From positions 1-20,701 of IMG/VR virus record IMGVR_UViG_3300027889_000014: a stretch of 20,701 nt of DNA, one strand, 5' to 3'. Made by a program: the position numbers and the translations under genes. Shown in pieces: positions 301-14,200 of this stretch. This DNA comes from a virus. The first letter of the stretch is position 1; every line of letters starts with the position of its first letter. Under the pieces are notes generated by a model. That model saw nothing but the letters and a program-made list of their open reading frames with translations. It was not told the DNA's origin and did not search any database.

Positions 301-446
301 AACTCCTCTCCTTCAACCTCGTCATCATGGCCCTCTACACCTGCACCGCCTGTTGGTGGGCCTACCATCGAAGGTGGGCGGATATGTGCTACTGGCTGAG
401 TGCGCTGGCAATCACTGCGACAGTGACGTTCGGATATAAGCATTGA
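297..446 (+). CDS. Small two-helix membrane protein upstream of polymerase
   Basis: An ATG at 297 overlaps the preceding stop (ATGA), and an AAGGA about ten bases upstream is a fair Shine-Dalgarno. The frame encodes 49 residues and ends at TGA 444-446, which overlaps the polymerase ATG at 446 as TGATG. The peptide has two hydrophobic stretches (about residues 3-21 and 31-46) separated by a short basic turn, YHRRW. That is the layout of a tiny hairpin membrane protein with the basic loop on the cytoplasmic side. It is rich in Trp and Cys (CTACWW). No family is recognised. Overlaps on both sides make it very likely to be translated. It could tether replication to the membrane, be a small host-modifying protein, or be an uncharacterised holin-like peptide; the sequence does not decide. 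Confidence 0.6.
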   Translation: MKLLSFNLVIMALYTCTACWWAYHRRWADMCYWLSALAITATVTFGYKH

Positions 447-2983
447 TGGGCATCCAGGTTCCTCCCGACGGCCCCGTCCCCGCCCGAGTGATGATCGTCG
501 GCGAGGCTCCCGGCGCTGACGAGGAGCGCCAGCTCGTCCCATTCGTCGGCGCCTCCGGCCAGGAACTCAACCGCATGCTCCATGAGGCAGGCATCTCCCG
601 CAGCGAATGTTTCGTCACCAACCTCTGCCGCGAGCGCCCTCCCAAGAACGACATCTCGCTCTTCCTCCGGAAGAGCGCCAAATTCACCAGCAAGCTCACC
701 AAGGAGGACGAACGCCGGCTCGCCGCCGGCATTGATCCCAGACTATTCGTACCACTCCGCAATATGCTCGTCGATCCCCGCGTGGCGGCTGGATTCGACT
801 TGCTCCAGAAGGAGATCTCCCTTGTTAAGCCTAATATCATCATTACTGTCGGCAATTCGTCGATGTGGGCCCTCACCGGCCGGTGGGGCATTACCAAGTG
901 GCGCGGCAGTATGCTCCTCGCCGACCTTCCCCTCCAGCCAAAGTGCATCCCTACTTATCACCCAGCAGCTGTTCTCCGCCAGTGGGATTGGAGAGCTATC
1001 ACAGTTAACGATCTTCGCAGAGCTGCCCGCTTTAGAGATGAATCTCCGTATCCAGTTCCCGAGCGTCGCTTCATCCTTCGACCAGACTACAATCAAGCTG
1101 AAGCTCTCCTCCGAAGCCTTATCGGAAGAGCAGAGGTGGCTTCTCGTCCATTGCGAATCAGCTTCGATATTGAAACTCGTGCGGGACATATTGCTTGCGC
1201 AGGGATCTCGTGGACTTATCTCGATGCCCTCTGCCTCCCTCTCATGTGCGCAGAGAGGAGAGAAGGCTATTGGAGTCTGGGAGAAGAAGCACAGCTCGTC
1301 CGCTTGCTCTGTGCCCTCCTTACCCACAGGAATGTTAGAGTCGTAGGGCAGAACATCCTCTACGACAGCCAATACACCTGGAGGTGGTGGCACTTCGTGC
1401 CTCGGGTCGACCAGGACACGATGATTAGCCAGCACTCGATCTTCTCCGACATGCCGAAGTCGCTGGCCTTCCAGGCCAGCATGTACGCCGACTACTACGT
1501 CTTCTGGAAAGAGGAGGGGAAGGATTGGGAAAAGAACATGAAGGAGGATGAGCTCTGGCATTACAACTGCCTGGACTGTGTATACACCGATGAAGTCGGC
1601 CAAGTTGAGCTGGAGACAATCCGCCGTCTCGGCTTGGAAAGGGTGCATGACTTCCAACAATCGATGTTCTGGCCGGTGCTGCAAGCCATGCAGCGGGGGG
1701 TGCGGATCGACACCCGCCGGCGAGATGAGCTGATCATGGAGGTTCAGAGCGAGATCGCCCGCCGGGAGGTCTTCCTCCAGACCGTCCTCGGCCATCCTCT
1801 CAACCCCGACTCGCCCAAGCAGATGCATGCCCTATTCTATCAAGATTTCAAGATGCCCCTCCAGATGAAGCGAGGCAAACCCGGTGAACCCTCACGACCA
1901 ACTCTCGATGACGACGCTCTTCAGAAGCTGGTTCGTATTGAACCTCTCCTTCGCCCTCTTGTTACTGCGGTCGCCGACATACGCACGTTGGGTAAATTCC
2001 TGTCTAACTTTCTTTGCCGTTCTCTTGATACTGACGGCCGCATGCGCTGTGCTTATAACATAGGAGGCTCCGCCAGTGGCAAGTCCGCCCCGAAGACCTA
2101 CCGTCTCTCCAGCTCAGAGAATGCATTCGGCTCTGGGACCAACCTCCAAAACATCCCCTCCGAGAAGTCTAAATCACTTGGTCGAGCTGCTGCTCGGGGA
2201 GGATTTGACGGAATTGGAGATCCATACCAGTTTCCGAATATCAGGGAAATCTTCATCCCCGATCCTGGCTTTACATGGTTCGATCTGGACCTGGAGAGGG
2301 CAGACCTTTTCGTTGTCTGTTGGGAAGCTGAAGATGAATCGCTCAAAAGGGCGATGCGGCTTGGAGTGGATATACATCTCCTTAATTCGTTTATCATCTC
2401 CGGCCGAGAACCTCCCCCCCTCGAAGAGCTAGCCGAAACCCATCCCCGATATGGAGCGCACCGTGGCCCGCAAACGCACCTTCGCGAGTTCGCCAAAGTC
2501 TTCTGTCACGGGACTAACTACGGGGGAGGGGCCAGGACTATGGCTGGCCATACTGGAAGATCTGTGCAGGAGATTGAGAGAGCGCAGCGCATTTGGTTCG
2601 GGGCGCATCCAGGTATCAAGAGCTGGCATGACCGTGTTAGCAAGCAAGTTAAAGAACGCAGGTTCGTTGAGAATCGACTTGGATATCGATGGTATATTTT
2701 CGATAGGGTGGATACCGTCATCCCGGAAGCTATTGCCTGGGTGCCGCAGAGCACTGTTTCAATCGTCATCAATCGCATCTGGGAACGCATCTATCGGGAG
2801 GTCCCAGAAGTCCAAGTCCTCCTGCAAGTCCATGATAGTCTCTCAGGACAATTCCCTACGGGACAAGCCACAGCTCTACTCCCGAGAATTAGGGAGTGCG
2901 CCAAGGTTGTTGTACCCTACGAGGATCCGTTAGTTATCCCGGTGTCTATCAAGACCTCTGAACGAAGCTGGGGGCATTGCTAA
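446..2983 (+). CDS. Family A DNA polymerase fused to N-terminal uracil-DNA glycosylase and 3'-5' exonuclease
   Basis: This 845-residue protein has three modules. Residues 1-195 match the family 4/5 uracil-DNA glycosylase fold: GEAPGADEE (19-27), PFVG (32-35), VTN (57-59) and YHPAAVLR (171-178). Residues 235-395 are a DnaQ-like proofreading exonuclease with D241/E243 (SFDIET), D307 (NILYD) and Y373-x3-D377, so all four acidic residues are present. Residues 400-845 are the PolA palm/fingers: motif A around D615 (FDLDLERADLF), motif B R680-x3-K684-x7-Y692, and motif C QVHD (794-797). Motif A has Asp620 where Glu is usual and Phe622 where Arg is usual; motif B has His688 at the E. coli Phe762 position. 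A similar UDG-polymerase fusion is known from SPO1-type phages. I use the ATG at 446; a TTG at 443 directly precedes it. It is the replicative polymerase of this phage by inference. Confidence 0.95.
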   Translation: MGIQVPPDGPVPARVMIVGEAPGADEERQLVPFVGASGQELNRMLHEAGISRSECFVTNLCRERPPKNDISLFLRKSAKFTSKLTKEDERRLAAGIDPRLFVPLRNMLVDPRVAAGFDLLQKEISLVKPNIIITVGNSSMWALTGRWGITKWRGSMLLADLPLQPKCIPTYHPAAVLRQWDWRAITVNDLRRAARFRDESPYPVPERRFILRPDYNQAEALLRSLIGRAEVASRPLRISFDIETRAGHIACAGISWTYLDALCLPLMCAERREGYWSLGEEAQLVRLLCALLTHRNVRVVGQNILYDSQYTWRWWHFVPRVDQDTMISQHSIFSDMPKSLAFQASMYADYYVFWKEEGKDWEKNMKEDELWHYNCLDCVYTDEVGQVELETIRRLGLERVHDFQQSMFWPVLQAMQRGVRIDTRRRDELIMEVQSEIARREVFLQTVLGHPLNPDSPKQMHALFYQDFKMPLQMKRGKPGEPSRPTLDDDALQKLVRIEPLLRPLVTAVADIRTLGKFLSNFLCRSLDTDGRMRCAYNIGGSASGKSAPKTYRLSSSENAFGSGTNLQNIPSEKSKSLGRAAARGGFDGIGDPYQFPNIREIFIPDPGFTWFDLDLERADLFVVCWEAEDESLKRAMRLGVDIHLLNSFIISGREPPPLEELAETHPRYGAHRGPQTHLREFAKVFCHGTNYGGGARTMAGHTGRSVQEIERAQRIWFGAHPGIKSWHDRVSKQVKERRFVENRLGYRWYIFDRVDTVIPEAIAWVPQSTVSIVINRIWERIYREVPEVQVLLQVHDSLSGQFPTGQATALLPRIRECAKVVVPYEDPLVIPVSIKTSERSWGHC

Positions 2984-7068: not shown

Positions 7069-7526
7069 GGCCTGCTCCCGAAGTGTGCGAGATAGAACGC
7101 GCCCATAATGATGGTTGCGAGGAGGGAAATGATAGAGACGACTATCGCAGCGCTATCCTTAATCCCTGCCGTCCGACCTGATTCAGCTTCCTTCCTGGTC
7201 TCCAGCTTCTCAATCCTTTCTCGTAATCCCTTCACCAAAGCCTCTGTCTCCAGCCGAGGCATCTGCAGTCGGTTGTTGTCGTCGAGGGACTTACGGAACT
7301 CGTTCACTCCCTCGAAACGCTTGTCACTGGCCGCTTCGGCCTTGGTGGTCGCGCGGTCTGCAGCGGCCAGCGCGGCGGCCACCGCCTTCTCTATCGCGAC
7401 GAACTTATCGTCACAACGGTCGGCGAGCGCCTTGACGGTGTCCTTTATGCCGGTTATTAACGCTTCCAAATACAGCCGCAGCGTCCCCAGCGTCCAGTGC
7501 TCGCCATTCGGATCGCGGGAGATCAT
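7065..7526 (-). CDS. Coiled-coil protein with C-terminal membrane anchor
   Basis: I start this gene at the ATG at 7526, whose ATGA overlaps the endolysin stop (7523-7526); a longer frame to 7622 runs inside the endolysin gene and is less likely. The 153-residue product opens with SRDPNGEHWTLGTLRLYLEAL. It continues with a long Ala/Glu/Lys coiled coil containing KRFEGVNEFRKSL, a signature I associate with a recurring phage protein found beside lysis genes. It ends with a single membrane helix (AIVVSIISLLATIIMGAFYL) close to the C-terminus. The topology is a tail-anchored coiled coil with its body in the cytoplasm. This could help the lysis complex or be a spanin-like or holin-modulating factor; neither is demonstrated. 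The next gene, the two-helix protein, overlaps its stop. Confidence 0.8.
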   Translation of the reverse strand: MISRDPNGEHWTLGTLRLYLEALITGIKDTVKALADRCDDKFVAIEKAVAAALAAADRATTKAEAASDKRFEGVNEFRKSLDDNNRLQMPRLETEALVKGLRERIEKLETRKEAESGRTAGIKDSAAIVVSIISLLATIIMGAFYLAHFGSRP

Positions 7527-7870
7527 CCTCGGACTCCATCCGGCGACAGCGAATAGTGGTCGAGATCGACGATCTTGAAATCGCCTCCCCACCTGTAGTT
7601 CGGCCCAAGGTTCTTCCACCACACTCCCAGTATCCGGTAGCAGCCGCTTGAGTCGTCCGCTTCGTACTCGCCGGCGATGAAGAGGTTGAGGTCGATGGCG
7701 AGCCTCTCAGTATGGAGGCTATCCGCCACCCCAATTCCCTTCGCTGCATCCACCGCCGCCTGCTCTGGCGTTCGCCAGGCCTCTCCAAGCGTCACCCCAT
7801 AGCCCATCTCAGCCGCGTACTGAATCAGCCTCGCCGCCGACTGGGCAAATTCTTCCTGGAGAGCGCTCAT
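7523..7870 (-). CDS. M15-family peptidase endolysin
   Basis: The 115-residue protein matches the M15C/VanY-type L,D- or D,D-peptidase fold used by phage endolysins. The signature S-x-H-x6-D is present as SLHTERLAID (His53, Asp60), and DLDHYSL supplies the third zinc ligand (His105) with the catalytic acid just before it. The GEAWRT segment near residue 29 and NYRWGGDF near 91 are further family landmarks. There is no cell-wall-binding domain and no signal peptide, so this single-domain enzyme would need a holin for release; it would cut peptide stems of peptidoglycan. Starts and stops overlap with neighbours (7867-7870 and 7523-7526). The position just after the tailspike and before membrane proteins fits a lysis cassette. 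Confidence 0.9.
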   Translation of the reverse strand: MSALQEEFAQSAARLIQYAAEMGYGVTLGEAWRTPEQAAVDAAKGIGVADSLHTERLAIDLNLFIAGEYEADDSSGCYRILGVWWKNLGPNYRWGGDFKIVDLDHYSLSPDGVRG

Positions 7871-9570
7871 GCCACAAAGCCCAGAACATTCACAACGATA
7901 TTGTTGCCTGAGCTACCCAGTACCGTGGCCCAGCTAGCTGCAGCGCCCGTGAATCCATTCAGGAGCTGCAAGGCGAGCCACAGCTGCGTCGTCCCATTAA
8001 CATCCACCGAAGTATAGGACGCCTGCACCGTATACGGGATAGTGCCTCCTGAAATATTCACCGAACCAATAGCGGCCAGCACTAGACAGTCACCATCCGA
8101 TTCCTCCCCGCCCGAGATCCCGGAATTACCGCTGTTGATAAGGAACAGTGACGGTGCGGCAGAACTGATTTTTCCGCCTCCTGCAAACGCCGTGGTAGAG
8201 TCAGTACCCGTCGGCGTATTCGTATAAGCAGCGCTCGCACCGCCGATCGCGGATACGAAGTTACTCGCCGTGCCGTTATTTCCCACCGCTGAGATACGAT
8301 GCTGCAGCGTGCCAGAGCTATTGTTGATCTGTAGAGAGAAGCCCTGAATCGGCTGTTTCTTCACCGCTAGCGTAGGCCCCTGCACGTATTGGCTGTAGCC
8401 ATAATCACCTATACCAGTCTGCGAGGCAGCCGCGCTTGAGGGATTCGAACCGTTACCGAAAAAGACCCCCGCGCTCTGATCATAAAATACGTGGCTGTAT
8501 TGACCATAGGTTCCGCTTGAGCCGCCATAATAGATTGCTGGGATGTTCACCCGCCAGTTTTCTGCGTTGCTCGTGACATAGATCAACTCGGTGTAAGTCG
8601 CACTCGCGAGCAGGCCAGACCAGAGGGCGTCTATCCGAGTCGCGCCATTCACGGTGAGGAAGATAATCCCACTCGCCGGCGCCTCAATCTCTAGATCAGC
8701 AACGTGGATGTCACCGAGGTAGCAGGCTGTCAGATTACTATTAACATCCAGCACGCCAGTCGCGCCGACGACAGAGAGGTTATCAATGTGCGTCCCCGAG
8801 CCCAGGACCTGCACTCCCCCAACCGTGTTGAAATAGAGCGTTCCTAGGTCCGCGACGTTGGTTGTTAGGTTGAGCGCGGCCTTCGAGACATTAGCGATAT
8901 AGACCTGATCAATAGTGCCGCCAGTTCCGAAGGCAACAGAGTTGTTCCCGAGATTGATACCATCAGCAGTAATATTATTGCCATAGACGCCAAGGTTCTT
9001 GATTACAATCTTCGCCGCGTTACCTGTATCAACCATCACGTGGGAGCTGGTCCAGCCGGAAGCCACACAGCACAGGTTGGACATCCACATTCCAGCACCC
9101 AAGAGGGCGGCGGCAGGAGGGAACTGTAGCTGACTCTTAATTGCGTAGTAATTAGCGCCGAGATAGCAAGGCTGTCCTATGATGCCTAGGGCTGTGTTTA
9201 TTGCCGGAGCGAAATCTGTCCCTCCATTACCAGCAGTGTTGGTAGCGTAGGTAAATCCAGCTGCAATATACCGCTCGGGATAACCAGGAGGATATTGGAA
9301 GTTAGTAGGAATGACGCCGGCGGTATCCTCGGCGGCTGTCTGAGGATAGAGAAGCGCCCCTATGCCCTGCGCGGTCGCCGGGACTATACCCTCGGCGGCT
9401 AGGATTGTCACTAGATCCGCTGGGGTGAGGCCAAGAGCAACCAAGATCTGCTCGACAGTCTGCGCCCCATCCAGCGCCGCCGGGCTATTGGCCAGTACAT
9501 CCAGAGCGTTCAGCCATGTCGCTGAGATCGCCGGCCCGCTCTGGCTCACAAAGTTCTGTGGGTAGCCCAT
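7867..9570 (-). CDS. Tailspike with right-handed beta-helix
   Basis: The 567-residue product begins with a short virion-attachment-like region (about 1-100, Ala/Leu helical, including VEQILVALGLTPADL). A pectate-lyase-type beta-helix follows from about residue 115. The entry motif TDFAPAINTAL, then YYAIKSQLQFP and LLGAGMWMSNL, matches the usual sequence that opens such helices (polysaccharide-active tailspikes). The following 200 residues are Val/Ile/Asn/Gly-rich coils (IKNLGVYGNN, HIDNLSVVG, IHVADLEIEAP). The C-terminal third is Ser/Gly/Asn-rich, as in receptor-binding or trimerisation parts. It probably binds and may cut the host surface polysaccharide; catalytic residues cannot be assigned. 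The ATG has an AGGAT site eight bases upstream overlapping the stop of the previous gene. Confidence 0.85.
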   Translation of the reverse strand: MGYPQNFVSQSGPAISATWLNALDVLANSPAALDGAQTVEQILVALGLTPADLVTILAAEGIVPATAQGIGALLYPQTAAEDTAGVIPTNFQYPPGYPERYIAAGFTYATNTAGNGGTDFAPAINTALGIIGQPCYLGANYYAIKSQLQFPPAAALLGAGMWMSNLCCVASGWTSSHVMVDTGNAAKIVIKNLGVYGNNITADGINLGNNSVAFGTGGTIDQVYIANVSKAALNLTTNVADLGTLYFNTVGGVQVLGSGTHIDNLSVVGATGVLDVNSNLTACYLGDIHVADLEIEAPASGIIFLTVNGATRIDALWSGLLASATYTELIYVTSNAENWRVNIPAIYYGGSSGTYGQYSHVFYDQSAGVFFGNGSNPSSAAASQTGIGDYGYSQYVQGPTLAVKKQPIQGFSLQINNSSGTLQHRISAVGNNGTASNFVSAIGGASAAYTNTPTGTDSTTAFAGGGKISSAAPSLFLINSGNSGISGGEESDGDCLVLAAIGSVNISGGTIPYTVQASYTSVDVNGTTQLWLALQLLNGFTGAAASWATVLGSSGNNIVVNVLGFVA

Positions 9571-9574
9571 TATC

Positions 9575-9919
9575 TTATCCTAGTTCGGTTGGCGGATTAA
9601 GCGGGTCGATGATAGTCCTACCTGGAATGGAGCAGCCCGGCAGGGCATAGCCTGGGATAGCTGAGATCCCGTTGAAGGTACAAATCTGCACATCAATCTC
9701 TCCCATCTTCTGGACGACAGGGATAGCCATCTCTCGGCTGTTGATGCTGTGCACAAAGTCTTGTGGAGGACGCTCTTCATTACACCTGACATGCCGCCAT
9801 TGCCCCTGCCAGTTCTGGACGGCATCGCCGAACTTCAGCTTCGTCCCACATATCGAACAGATGATATTCCAATCGCCGGGACGATAGTAATCGTATGGGC
9901 CGCGTGCCAGCCTACTCAT
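9575..9919 (-). CDS. Small zinc-binding phage protein
   Basis: The 114-residue product carries a CxxC...HxxC zinc-binding set: Cys21 and Cys24 in ICSICGTK, then His43 and Cys46 in WRHVRCNEE, followed by RPPQDFV. This layout (GDWN, CxxC, NWQGQWR, PPQDFV) recalls a zinc-ribbon protein family that recurs in podovirus-type late regions. The C-terminal half holds CTFNGISAIPGYALPGCSIPG, a repetitive aliphatic stretch seen in small virion proteins. The role is unknown, perhaps a virion accessory. The start lies eight bases inside the end of the ATP-grasp gene (overlap 9912-9919), so the two are probably translated together. The stop TAA is part of the tailspike gene's ribosome-binding area. Confidence 0.8.
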   Translation of the reverse strand: MSRLARGPYDYYRPGDWNIICSICGTKLKFGDAVQNWQGQWRHVRCNEERPPQDFVHSINSREMAIPVVQKMGEIDVQICTFNGISAIPGYALPGCSIPGRTIIDPLNPPTELG

Positions 9920-11261
9920 ACTTCATCCCCTCCACGAAGTCGTGCTTCTGGAGCATCTTCAGCTCAGCCTCGAGCCGGCTCCCGATGTCGGTGCGGAACA
10001 TAGTGTTGGAGGGCATCTTCAGCCCCCAAGCTATTGCATAGGCCGCGTCTGCCGCCTGCTTCACAGTCTTCCCCGTGCCAGTGACAACCAAGGGATAGTT
10101 CCCAGCAGTGCAAGGCATCGGCATCTGCTCCACCTGATCATTGATCAGCATCGGCACTCGGCCCATCTTAGCCTGTTGCCAGTGGATGTTCTTCTCGACC
10201 CGCTCGGAGACTCCATAGATTGGATAGCCCACCCAGGTATCCAGAGTGTCCTTCGGTCGGGAGTCGGATGGACCGCCCCTCGGAAAGTCCCCATGCGTCA
10301 GCACCACCCCGACCGCAATATCCATCGAGACCCTGAGCGTATCCCCGCCGGCGATGAGGTCGCCCATCCACTGTACAGGGTCTTTGAGCACAACCGCCTG
10401 CCGGATGCAGAAGTCAGGCCAGCCCAACCGCATGGTGAATTCAAGCGGCCACGCCGTGCCCTTCTTGTCGACCATGCAGTTAATGGAACAATCCCCAACA
10501 TAGTTAACGCTGTGTAGGTAGTCCCCGATCGGTTCCAGCACAGCGTCGAAGAGCTTGCTCTTGACCACATGACGGATAACTGTCCCCATCTCACCAGTGT
10601 TCTCCCCGAGGTCGTCGTTCAAGAACTTCTTGTGCTCGAACGATTCCTCCAATGCTTTGCACCATCCACCAGGACCGAACATCCCCGAGATCCCCACCTC
10701 CACTCCCTCCACCTTCTCCTGCATCATCAGCCGGCCCTTGAACTTGCCCTCCTTGCGCCAACGCAGGAGGGTGAAGATGGCATCGTCGGCGGTGCTGGCC
10801 ACATAAGTCATGTGCTTGTCGGCTTCCCCGCCCCAGGGCTTCATCGCGTAGGCCTTGCCTGTCTTGATGACTAGCTCAACCGCTTCCTCGGGCGAGGTCA
10901 CAACTGTGTAGGGGATAGTCTCCACGCCGGCGCTCTCGAGGACCTGCTGCCCCAGCTCCCGCTCCGTCTCGAGCAGGGTGGCCTTCGGGTTCGAGCCAAA
11001 GATCGGATATCCCTTCCCAAAGTACTCCGCCAGCTCGCTCATGAAGACAGTGTTCCCTGTCAGTATGATCAGCTCAGCCCAATCCATCGACGGCCGCCAC
11101 TCTCGAGGTTTCTCTATCATACCATCCCCGTACGGCCGGGGCAAGCCAGAGCCGAGGAAGGGAGGCAACCACATGCGGACCTCATGGTCGGCGTCCTGGG
11201 CGCGGAGGGCGATGTCGAGGCCAGTCCCCTCGCCGGCGTTATCCATGACGAAGACTCTCAT
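9912..11261 (-). CDS. PurD-like ATP-grasp ligase, phage-type
   Basis: The 449-residue protein has the domain order of glycinamide ribonucleotide synthetase (PurD). A Rossmann-like N-domain (1-90) is followed by an ATP-grasp core: YAMKPWGG with Lys141, MMQEKVEGVEVGISG around 179-193, and LEFTMRLGWPD at 273-283. A C-terminal domain ends with the family phrase FRTDIGSRL (422-430). PurD joins glycine to phosphoribosylamine. However, the metal/substrate loop that reads EFN-x-RFGDPE in PurD is EFTMRLGWPD here, with Asn replaced by Thr and Asp by Trp, so a different substrate is likely. Its neighbours are virion genes and not purine genes, with ATGA overlap to the 1371-residue protein. A role in nucleotide metabolism, or ligation onto a protein or metabolite, are both open. 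Confidence 0.85.
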   Translation of the reverse strand: MRVFVMDNAGEGTGLDIALRAQDADHEVRMWLPPFLGSGLPRPYGDGMIEKPREWRPSMDWAELIILTGNTVFMSELAEYFGKGYPIFGSNPKATLLETERELGQQVLESAGVETIPYTVVTSPEEAVELVIKTGKAYAMKPWGGEADKHMTYVASTADDAIFTLLRWRKEGKFKGRLMMQEKVEGVEVGISGMFGPGGWCKALEESFEHKKFLNDDLGENTGEMGTVIRHVVKSKLFDAVLEPIGDYLHSVNYVGDCSINCMVDKKGTAWPLEFTMRLGWPDFCIRQAVVLKDPVQWMGDLIAGGDTLRVSMDIAVGVVLTHGDFPRGGPSDSRPKDTLDTWVGYPIYGVSERVEKNIHWQQAKMGRVPMLINDQVEQMPMPCTAGNYPLVVTGTGKTVKQAADAAYAIAWGLKMPSNTMFRTDIGSRLEAELKMLQKHDFVEGMKYE

Positions 11262-14200
11262 TGAGGTGGAGTCCAGGAGTTGCGGACGTGCTGGCGATTG
11301 GCGTGGGGGAGGAGGGCATCCACCTCCTCCGGCGTGGCATGATTCAGAACCTTGATCTGTTCCTGCCAGGGAAGGCGCATAAACATCCTCGTAGTCGCCG
11401 GCAACCCCGAGTTGAGGCTTCGGATCAATCTCCGCTGATCCGATCCAGAGAGTTCATTCTGCTCCACAATCTTATCCAGCAGATCTCCGTACTTGTCCGA
11501 ACCGCTCTGATAAGCCTCCCTCAATTGCGAGTATTCTTTAGAGTACTCTGCCTTCTCAAAGGGTGTCTCCTTCGGCGCAACGTAGTTGCGGAACGCTGTC
11601 TTGATGTCAGCATCCGTCTTCGACTCAGTGAGGTACTTCGGAGCAGGGGTGAAGCCAAGGACGGACAACGCTCCTGCCTTAACCGGCTTATCCGTCACAT
11701 TCTCCTGCATCGCCCGCATCGAGATCGGCTCGAGATCCGAGAACGTATAGGCGAGGGTCTGTTCGAGTTTCTTGAAGGCGTCCGAATCTGGGTCACGAAT
11801 CTCCTGCCCGAACCCATTCACTCCAGTCGCCCACTCATGCATCAGCCCAAACAGCCCCGAGCCCTTATTGAGCACGAGGTCTGATACTCCCTGCGTCATC
11901 CCTTCATTCTGGATGTGCTTATACAGGGAGGCAAACTCGCGCGAGTAGAACATTGTGGTGACTCGCTGGGGCGAGCCATCTGGGTTCGTCTCTCCCGTTT
12001 GTGGATCAATATAGTCCAGCAGGCTCGAGGGCTGTTTCCCTGTCATAGCATAGGTCATGAGCCCAGCCACCCCTGCTCCGAGGGTCGTGTAGGAGGCGAC
12101 GAAGATTGGCCGGTCCAGCTGCCCTTCCTTGATGCGCTTCAGCTTCCCTCCCTGGGTAGCCCACTGGCCGAGGTCCATCGCCCCGCCGCCGTATTCGCGG
12201 ATGAATCCTAACTGCCATCCTAGACTCAGCGTATCCATCACCGCCAGATCCTTCATCCATCGCTTCCAGAACAGGGTGTTGTAGTTCATCTCTCCGTAGC
12301 GATTCTCCACACTCTTCCCCAGCTTCCGCATCGCCAGATGCCTCTGGGCAGGATTCTCCACCAGCTCGGGGTTGCGAGCCAGGAGGTTCTTGGCATCCTT
12401 CAGCGCAGAGGCTGCCTTGAGTGCAGGAATCCACTCCTCGAAGATCGGCTTCGACATTGCGCTGATCATGGCCCAGGGCAGATGCCAGGTGGCTCGGGTG
12501 AGGTCGCCGGCGAGCCCGATCGGATGGCCCTGCCTGAAGTTCGCCCTCGCATCCGTCAGGGCGTTCATGAAGTTCACCCTCGCATTCGACTTGTACTGCG
12601 CAGACATCTCCGGCGAAACCCCCATCTCGATCAGGGTTTCGAGCGCCTTCGTATCATTCGGGGTTAATTTCTCCTTCGGAATCTTCCCACGCAGTGCCTG
12701 GAGAACTCGCCACCCCGGCGGGTTCGTAACGGCCCGCACGCCGGGCAATTCCGAAAGGGGCCGATACCCCAACCCGGACGCCAACATCTCCCCTAGCGCG
12801 CGGTGGACCGGCACGGACCCCGATAGGAGGCCTGTCAGTCCCCGCGTCATGCCGGCGGCCATATCGATGCCCAGGATGTGCAGCGGGTGGAACAGAGACA
12901 GTGCCAGCCGGATCGGCACGAGTGCATTCTTCAGACTCATCATCCCCCGGAATCCCGTCCCTACCAGCCCTTGATCCGCCCAGAGGCTCTTCGATTTGAA
13001 AGCATTATCCAGGATAGCATCCGCTTGCTGATCCACCCAGAACACATCCCCATTCGGTGCTCGGTAGCGAACCGTCCCCTCCGGCCGTTCCGTCCCCTCA
13101 GTCTTCTCAATCCGAAAGCTCATCTTCCCTTCGGAGTCAAGTTCCTTGACGAGCCTCTCGCCCCCCTCGATCTTCCGAGTAGCCAGCCCATAGCTCGCCA
13201 GATCATTCAGGATGCCGATATGCATCTCTGCTATATCCGAGGCGTGCTGCCGAGCCAGCATGATGTCCTCGGGATTGTCGAACCTCGGCCGGAACCCCGC
13301 TGCAACCGCCTCTTTGTAGAGGTCGAAGCTGCGATCCTTGATAAACCCTGGATCGCCCCACTTCGACCCATACTTCTTCGTGAAGTAGTTCGAGACCCCC
13401 TCCGAATCCTCGAATACATGATACAGGTAATTATCCCTCGGCTCGTAGTCGAACCCGAGCTTCTTATCATTCTCCGCGATCTTCCCACTCCAATCCCTGT
13501 ACTTCGCCGCCAGCTTCGCCAAGATCGGATCGGAGAAGTTCTCTCCCCGCTCGAACCTGGCGATGAATTCCTTCGTCCAGTCCGGCCTCCCCCTCCAGAA
13601 CTTCAGCCTGGTCCGAGACCCGTGGCGCCAGAGGGCCTCCTTCTGCATTTGCTCGGTAATGCGGCTAGCAACTGTGGCGGCGGCGAGCTTGGCTCGAGCC
13701 CCGATCGCTTCGGGAGCGAACGTCCTGAGGAGTTGCTCGACCGAGATCGCGAGGGAGGTCTTGGCGCGACGAAGGTCTTTCGGATCAACAAGTCGGCCGA
13801 TCTCAACTGTCGCACGATTGATGTCTCCTCTGGTGATGTTAGCGCCGTCTGAGGTTTTCGCCACGACCTCCATGATGGAGCGGCTGCTAGCCGGCTTCTC
13901 CTCGGATTGCATCTTGATAAGCTGCGTCCCAACCCGCATCGCATGATGGAGCAGATTCGTCTCCCCCGGCTGCATCCCGAAGTGGCGCGCCAGCAGAGCC
14001 CCGAACTGGCTCATCATATTCTTAAAGCGATACCCGGCCGAAGCGTACTTCTCCGAATTGGCGAGGAATTCCTGGAAGTCGGGGTTTGAGAACGCCTCCG
14101 CTACGAACTCATACCGGGGAGACATCCTCGCGTAGGCGATACCGCCGGCGGCACTGGCAGTGTTCCGCTTCGACCTATCCCCCTCCAGCCCGTAGAACTC

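Follow-up and report, generated by a model that had tools for sequence, protein, structure and literature searches.

A PurD-like ATP-grasp ligase with an altered substrate pocket in the virion operon of uncultured podovirus-like phages

Among described ATP-grasp enzymes, the closest comparison for the phage ligase considered here is PurD, the GAR synthetase of purine synthesis. The phosphoribosylamine site of PurD is marked by two N-domain motifs, GGREHA and GPExPL, and an arginine of the PurD-type loop binds the substrate carboxylate. The residues that hold the substrates have been named in A. aeolicus PurD, from which the ligand roles used for mapping below are taken (PMC8880213). Phages of the LUZ24-like and phiEco32 types also encode ligases, as sets of amidoligase, glutamine amidotransferase and ATP-grasp genes, and cell-wall or peptide targets have been proposed for some of these (Iyer et al., 2009, as cited in PMC10580990; PMC3890496). 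These sets are GS-like amidoligase and GATase cassettes, early genes in LUZ24-like phages, whereas the present ligase gene lacks such neighbors: no Pfam match to the PF12224 or PF14395 amidoligases or to GATase was obtained among the window proteins scanned, which cover the small ORFs in part. A literature search for work joining an ATP-grasp enzyme and an ejection protein returned no paper in the collection searched.

The window, that is, the whole 20,701-nucleotide stretch of viral DNA analyzed, carries the ligase gene within a run of virion genes on the minus strand, listed here in their order of reading.

18063..19742, minus strand: head closure Hc3 or stabilization protein (phrog_578); the 5′ part of the frame overlaps the next gene, and translation probably begins further inside the frame
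16486..17850, minus strand: DNA ejection protein (phrog_598)
15363..16484, minus strand: second ejection-type protein (cluster c6)
11258..15373, minus strand: giant (1371 aa) putative ejection or internal virion protein, with a HEIVHS metallopeptidase-like motif near residue 325 and an ATGA overlap with the ligase gene
9912..11261, minus strand: PurD-like ATP-grasp ligase, 449 aa (P0001), ATG start, assigned from Pfam, NCBIfam, a fold model and 83 homologues
9575..9919, minus strand: zinc-ribbon protein, kept beside the fibre genes whether or not the ligase is present
7867..9570, minus strand: putative tail fibre or spike, named from its position and repetitive character only

The ligase gene shares its first four bases with the end of the giant ejection gene and its last eight with the beginning of the zinc-ribbon gene, and no purine gene lies nearby, so that the placement among ejection and zinc-protein genes, away from nucleotide genes, is as the preliminary description had it.

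That description had also proposed a PurD-like order of domains, which both the domain matches and a fold prediction bear out. Pfam places GARS_A at residues 103-282 (E 3.7e-12) and GARS_C at residues 384-429 (E 1.6e-4, below that family's cut-off); beyond these it returns a weak ATP-grasp_5 match only, with no DUF4343/R2K sequence match that would assign the protein to the R2K/CDC123 group. The AF2 model (pLDDT 84.8, pTM 0.86) aligns with 13 PurD/GARS entries among solved structures at Z 27.6-30.9, over residues 1 to about 435, and the predicted structure displays the three-domain PurD fold. The next structural class (PurK, PurT, PylC and biotin carboxylases) scores 23.8 or less; PurK, PurT and PylC share the ATP-grasp fold, with Z about 22-24, but their similarity falls below that of PurD and they act on different substrates. 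The ligase thus resembles PurD (TIGR00877; PDB 2YW2, 2XCL, 2QK4) in its full-length N, ATP-grasp and C domains, in its ATP/Mg residues and in the carboxylate-binding arginine. At the level of sequence, however, it scores 85 bits against the NCBIfam purD equivalog model (TIGR00877), for which the cut-off is 288, so a strict pipeline is not expected to call it purD, whereas a Pfam-based pipeline yields a GARS name. A PHROGs search with the ligase gave no match, even at E 10.

Differences between the two enzymes are concentrated in the substrate pocket. The ligands of A. aeolicus PurD were carried onto the ligase through an alignment, and conservation was counted over the 83 sequences of the phage family.

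11241..11243, minus strand: D7, replacing the first glycine of the PurD N-domain loop (78/83)
10698..10970, minus strand: ATP/Mg residues E98, R101 (lysine in PurD), K141, Q181 (glutamate in PurD) and E188, each in 83/83
10581..10637, minus strand: EHKKFLNDDLGENTGEMGT, residues 209-227, with E209 (aspartate in PurD), retained K211 and E224 (glycine in PurD)
10413..10442, minus strand: EFTMRLGWPD loop, residues 274-283, with E274 and R278 kept and T276, W281 and D283 changed relative to PurD

The ATP/Mg set maps residue by residue (E100 to E98, K103 to R101, K143 to K141, E185 to Q181, E192 to E188 and K214 to K211), every position is invariant across the family, and the two changes, K to R at R101 and E to Q at Q181, are conservative; PurK and PurT carry an arginine at the position matching R101. 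With E274 and R278, which are likewise invariant, these residues complete the ATP/Mg set that, along with the predicted fold, is expected of an ATP-grasp carboxylate-amine ligase. The glycine ligands have fared differently. R287 is retained as R278 in 83/83 sequences, and we take this residue to be the carboxylate-binding arginine, but D212 has become E209 (83/83) and the position of E292 is not conserved in the family (it is D283 in the window protein), leaving only the arginine of the three. In the same loop, whose reading as EFTMRLGWPD in the preliminary description proved correct, N285 of PurD is replaced by T276 in every sequence and D290 by W281 in 81 of the 83. Since PurT and PurK also lack the loop asparagine (E-x-[S/A]-x-R), the N-to-T change by itself is no sign of odd chemistry. 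A PurD glycine is E224 throughout the family, turning TGG into TGE, and a segment of about five residues that follows in PurD (YSPAP) is missing after residues 209-227. Finally, GGREHA and GPExPL, which vary little or not at all among 29 cellular PurD proteins, are absent from the phage family. From this pattern we infer that the enzyme retains the ATP and acyl-phosphate half-reaction but has a changed acid pocket, and the amine substrate is probably something other than phosphoribosylamine.

Phylogeny separates the same two groups. Each forms a clade of its own that excludes the other (100/99 for the phage family and 98/99 for cellular PurD), and the ligase falls outside cellular PurD. A protein of this kind, with altered substrate residues and set in a virion operon, is probably mislabeled by an automatic "phosphoribosylamine-glycine ligase" annotation, and the earlier warning that such a name would probably mislead is supported. 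What is new here is that the loop change reaches beyond phages, into plasmids of Roseomonas, Sphingomonas and Halarchaeum and into one Rhodanobacteraceae assembly (G467). With these cellular relatives added, PurD (100/100), the phage proteins (96/96) and the relatives (97/94) each form a clade; the relatives sit beside the phages, and a long branch parts both from PurD, in a tree with no independent root, so that transfer may have gone either way. The relatives' shared signature (R101, E209, E224, T276 and TGEMGT) and common clade assign the phage ligase to a PurD-like lineage that is not PurD and is recognizable by EFTxRxG(W/Y/N)P and TGEMGT, with four cellular members sampled. The changed loop described earlier for the phage gene is therefore real and fixed in phages but not specific to them, as bacterial and archaeal relatives in other gene contexts carry EFTxRxG(W/Y)P; it marks a wider lineage rather than a phage invention.

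The nearest clade comprises the Roseomonas protein WP_207415351.1 (annotated as hypothetical), Halarchaeum WP_123078225.1 (labeled "phosphoribosylglycinamide synthetase C domain-containing protein") and the G467 protein, all of which carry the signature residues of the phage ligase. Plasmid-borne and cellular relatives differ from it in having no virion operon, in reading Y or N for W281 and in lacking D7. By automatic labels, the Roseomonas gene is flanked by type III PKS, FAD monooxygenase, methyltransferase and aminotransferase genes, and the G467 gene (L272, G467:C371) by arginine-dihydrolase-like, HDO-like and PrmC-like methyltransferase genes, the HDO-like label resting on one weak match of 19.5 bits. 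The G467 locus resembles a small uncharacterized biosynthetic cluster. The copy in Sphingomonas, which adjoins a SET-domain gene on a plasmid of Sphingomonas daechungensis (L273), is split, and the Lys region is missing from it.

Within phages, the gene is common in a large, widely distributed group that is uncultured, podovirus-like and mostly from soil. An initial IMG/VR scan gave 13 encoding stretches and a later profile scan 239 confirmed relatives, the best 80 of which were used; the 83 usable homologues were drawn from IMG/VR phages, from a single metagenomic phage in GenBank (MW202796.1) and from a single prophage of Rhodanobacteraceae. MW202796.1 is the only genome among 50,697 GenBank phage records to contain the ligase. 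Other matches in those records (23-27% identical) were rejected as relatives, the seven sequences used having canonical PurD motifs and the records looking like cellular contamination. Bacterial genomes yielded nothing in a scan for close relatives, and a profile scan found the single prophage. Between close pairs of homologues dN/dS is 0.03-0.07, indicating that the protein is maintained; distant pairs (0.3-0.7) are saturated and were left out. With 83 homologues, a constant slot and purifying selection, the gene is not a chance find.

In most loci extending that far, the slot lies after the last ejection-type gene, and the exact 4-base ATGA overlap recurs in 53 of the 66 loci having an upstream frame. 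The proteins encoded upstream belong to several unrelated clusters among the subgroups and are swapped while the ligase stays, and no common C-terminal tag or motif is evident on them. Conversely, three loci reached through a scan for the neighboring primase (L158, L176 and L184) have the same giant ejection protein, with the zinc-ribbon gene adjacent or close, and no ligase there or elsewhere in their records, which in two cases run to about 47 kb; MW202489.1 has the same gene order, again with the ligase absent. A gene that is common and yet cleanly missing from close relatives is dispensable, and where present it always occupies one slot. In a 10-versus-3 comparison, the candidates for tracking the ligase came down to a UvrD-like helicase and a 125-aa protein, not convincingly, and neither a GNAT nor a cupin gene was seen to be swapped for it. 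A separate variable slot, bounded by Hc3 and the first ejection gene (L010, L025, L047, L035, L176, L184), holds small enzymes that are possibly protein-modifying: cupin, SET, GNAT, aspartyl/asparaginyl-hydroxylase-like, sulfotransferase-like and, by eye, 2OG-oxygenase-like.

The reading we favor, with some confidence, is that the protein is an active ligase, derived from PurD but no longer PurD, and tied to the virion module. Judged from its sequence, it would convert a carboxylate, which is not or not solely glycine, to an acyl-phosphate and join it to an amine other than phosphoribosylamine. Made together with the late virion proteins, it would most likely either modify a virion component, such as an ejection, connector or fibre protein, or yield a small amide that accompanies the virion proteins or acts alongside them; a protein target taken by itself carries low confidence. 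In either case it would be a dispensable fitness factor. The slot and the translational coupling are why we lean slightly toward a virion-linked role. A more specific version, in which a PurD-descended maturation ligase couples an amino acid, or some different acid, through an amide bond to an ejection protein or another virion protein, is put forward only tentatively. The preliminary description had suspected an uncharacterized ligase that might modify a virion protein; a PurD-derived, non-PurD ligase in the virion operon has stood up, but modification of a virion protein stays conjectural, with ejection proteins exchanged, no C-terminal tag and the same ejection protein occurring without the ligase. 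Unrelated upstream proteins without an evident C-terminal motif argue against the upstream protein as a universal target.

Several other explanations draw on the same observations. It is possible, though a doubtful proposition, that the phages took up an accessory-metabolism enzyme of the same clade, one that makes a small peptide-like amide used late in infection for host manipulation or as a virion-associated molecule. The nearest cellular relatives in Roseomonas and G467 are plasmid-borne or accessory, lie among biosynthesis-type genes and share T276, E209, E224 and R101, and neighbors such as the arginine-dihydrolase-like, oxidase-like, type III polyketide synthase and aminotransferase genes fit small molecules better than proteins. 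A precedent exists in the mangotoxin pathway, where a dipeptide is the product of ATP-grasp ligases encoded next to an HDO oxidase (PMC13185094). However, those neighbor functions are automatic labels, the phage gene has no adjoining biosynthetic partner, and a constant, translationally coupled virion slot is unusual for a metabolic gene. It is unlikely, on the other hand, that the ligase is itself packaged as a further ejected protein, an enzyme or former enzyme acting in the newly infected cell. Its gene comes immediately after three ejection-type genes, with translational coupling to the last, and large phage polyvalent proteins do carry conflict enzymes (PMC5512222), but no packaging signal was identified and the conservation of the active site speaks against a purely structural role.

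Rather less probable still is a divergent PurD that continues to make GAR, either boosting purine synthesis or replacing a missing host purD. Besides the PurD fold (Z about 30), this idea draws on two carrier genomes. The only lysogen found, Rhodanobacteraceae bacterium ZG21-1 (G001), has purH, purL and purM but no recognizable purD (contig C16:66000-80000, L258); at the place after purH that purD occupies in two relatives, 277 bases on and with no gap at that point, it has an MBOAT-type gene. Of 26 genomes in the family, 25 carry purD. G467, which holds a member of the cellular clade, likewise has no purD match over the cut-off. These two genomes are why the GAR reading keeps a small probability, but the absence was noticed after the fact, purD may lie outside the sequence examined, the G467 assembly is fragmented, and plain auxotrophy explains the loss equally well. 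Neither the glycine ligands D212 and E292 nor the phosphoribosylamine motifs are conserved, the equivalog score, separate clade and operon position point elsewhere, and the Sphingomonas copy is split. Similarity to PurD might also suggest a decayed or misassigned host purD acquired by accident; this is scarcely credible, being refuted by 83 homologues with fixed changes, the low dN/dS and the separate clade. A role in DNA hypermodification was dropped, as no supporting cluster was seen.

Surveys of auxiliary genes could take ligases of this kind, common as they are in a large uncultured podovirus-like group, for purine metabolism. Returning to the favored reading of a virion-tied ligase, the ligase, with an active site that is fixed, a clade of its own and one genomic slot, offers a testable example of a purine enzyme turned to a task linked with the virion, and the purD-less lysogen ZG21-1 offers a natural experiment for the opposite, purine view. 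If a virion-maturation ligase were indeed at work, it would represent ATP-grasp post-translational modification of a phage injection apparatus.

Two further genes of the window merit mention. At 7523-7870 (minus strand) lies a putative M15-type peptidase (Peptidase_M15_4, just below the cut-off), likely an endolysin. At 443-2983 (plus strand) is a DNA polymerase A with a weak 3′-5′ exonuclease match and, at its N-terminus (residues 7-182), a uracil-DNA glycosylase domain of family-4-like type (Pfam UDG, E 1.8e-25), homologues of similar length being present in many related phages.
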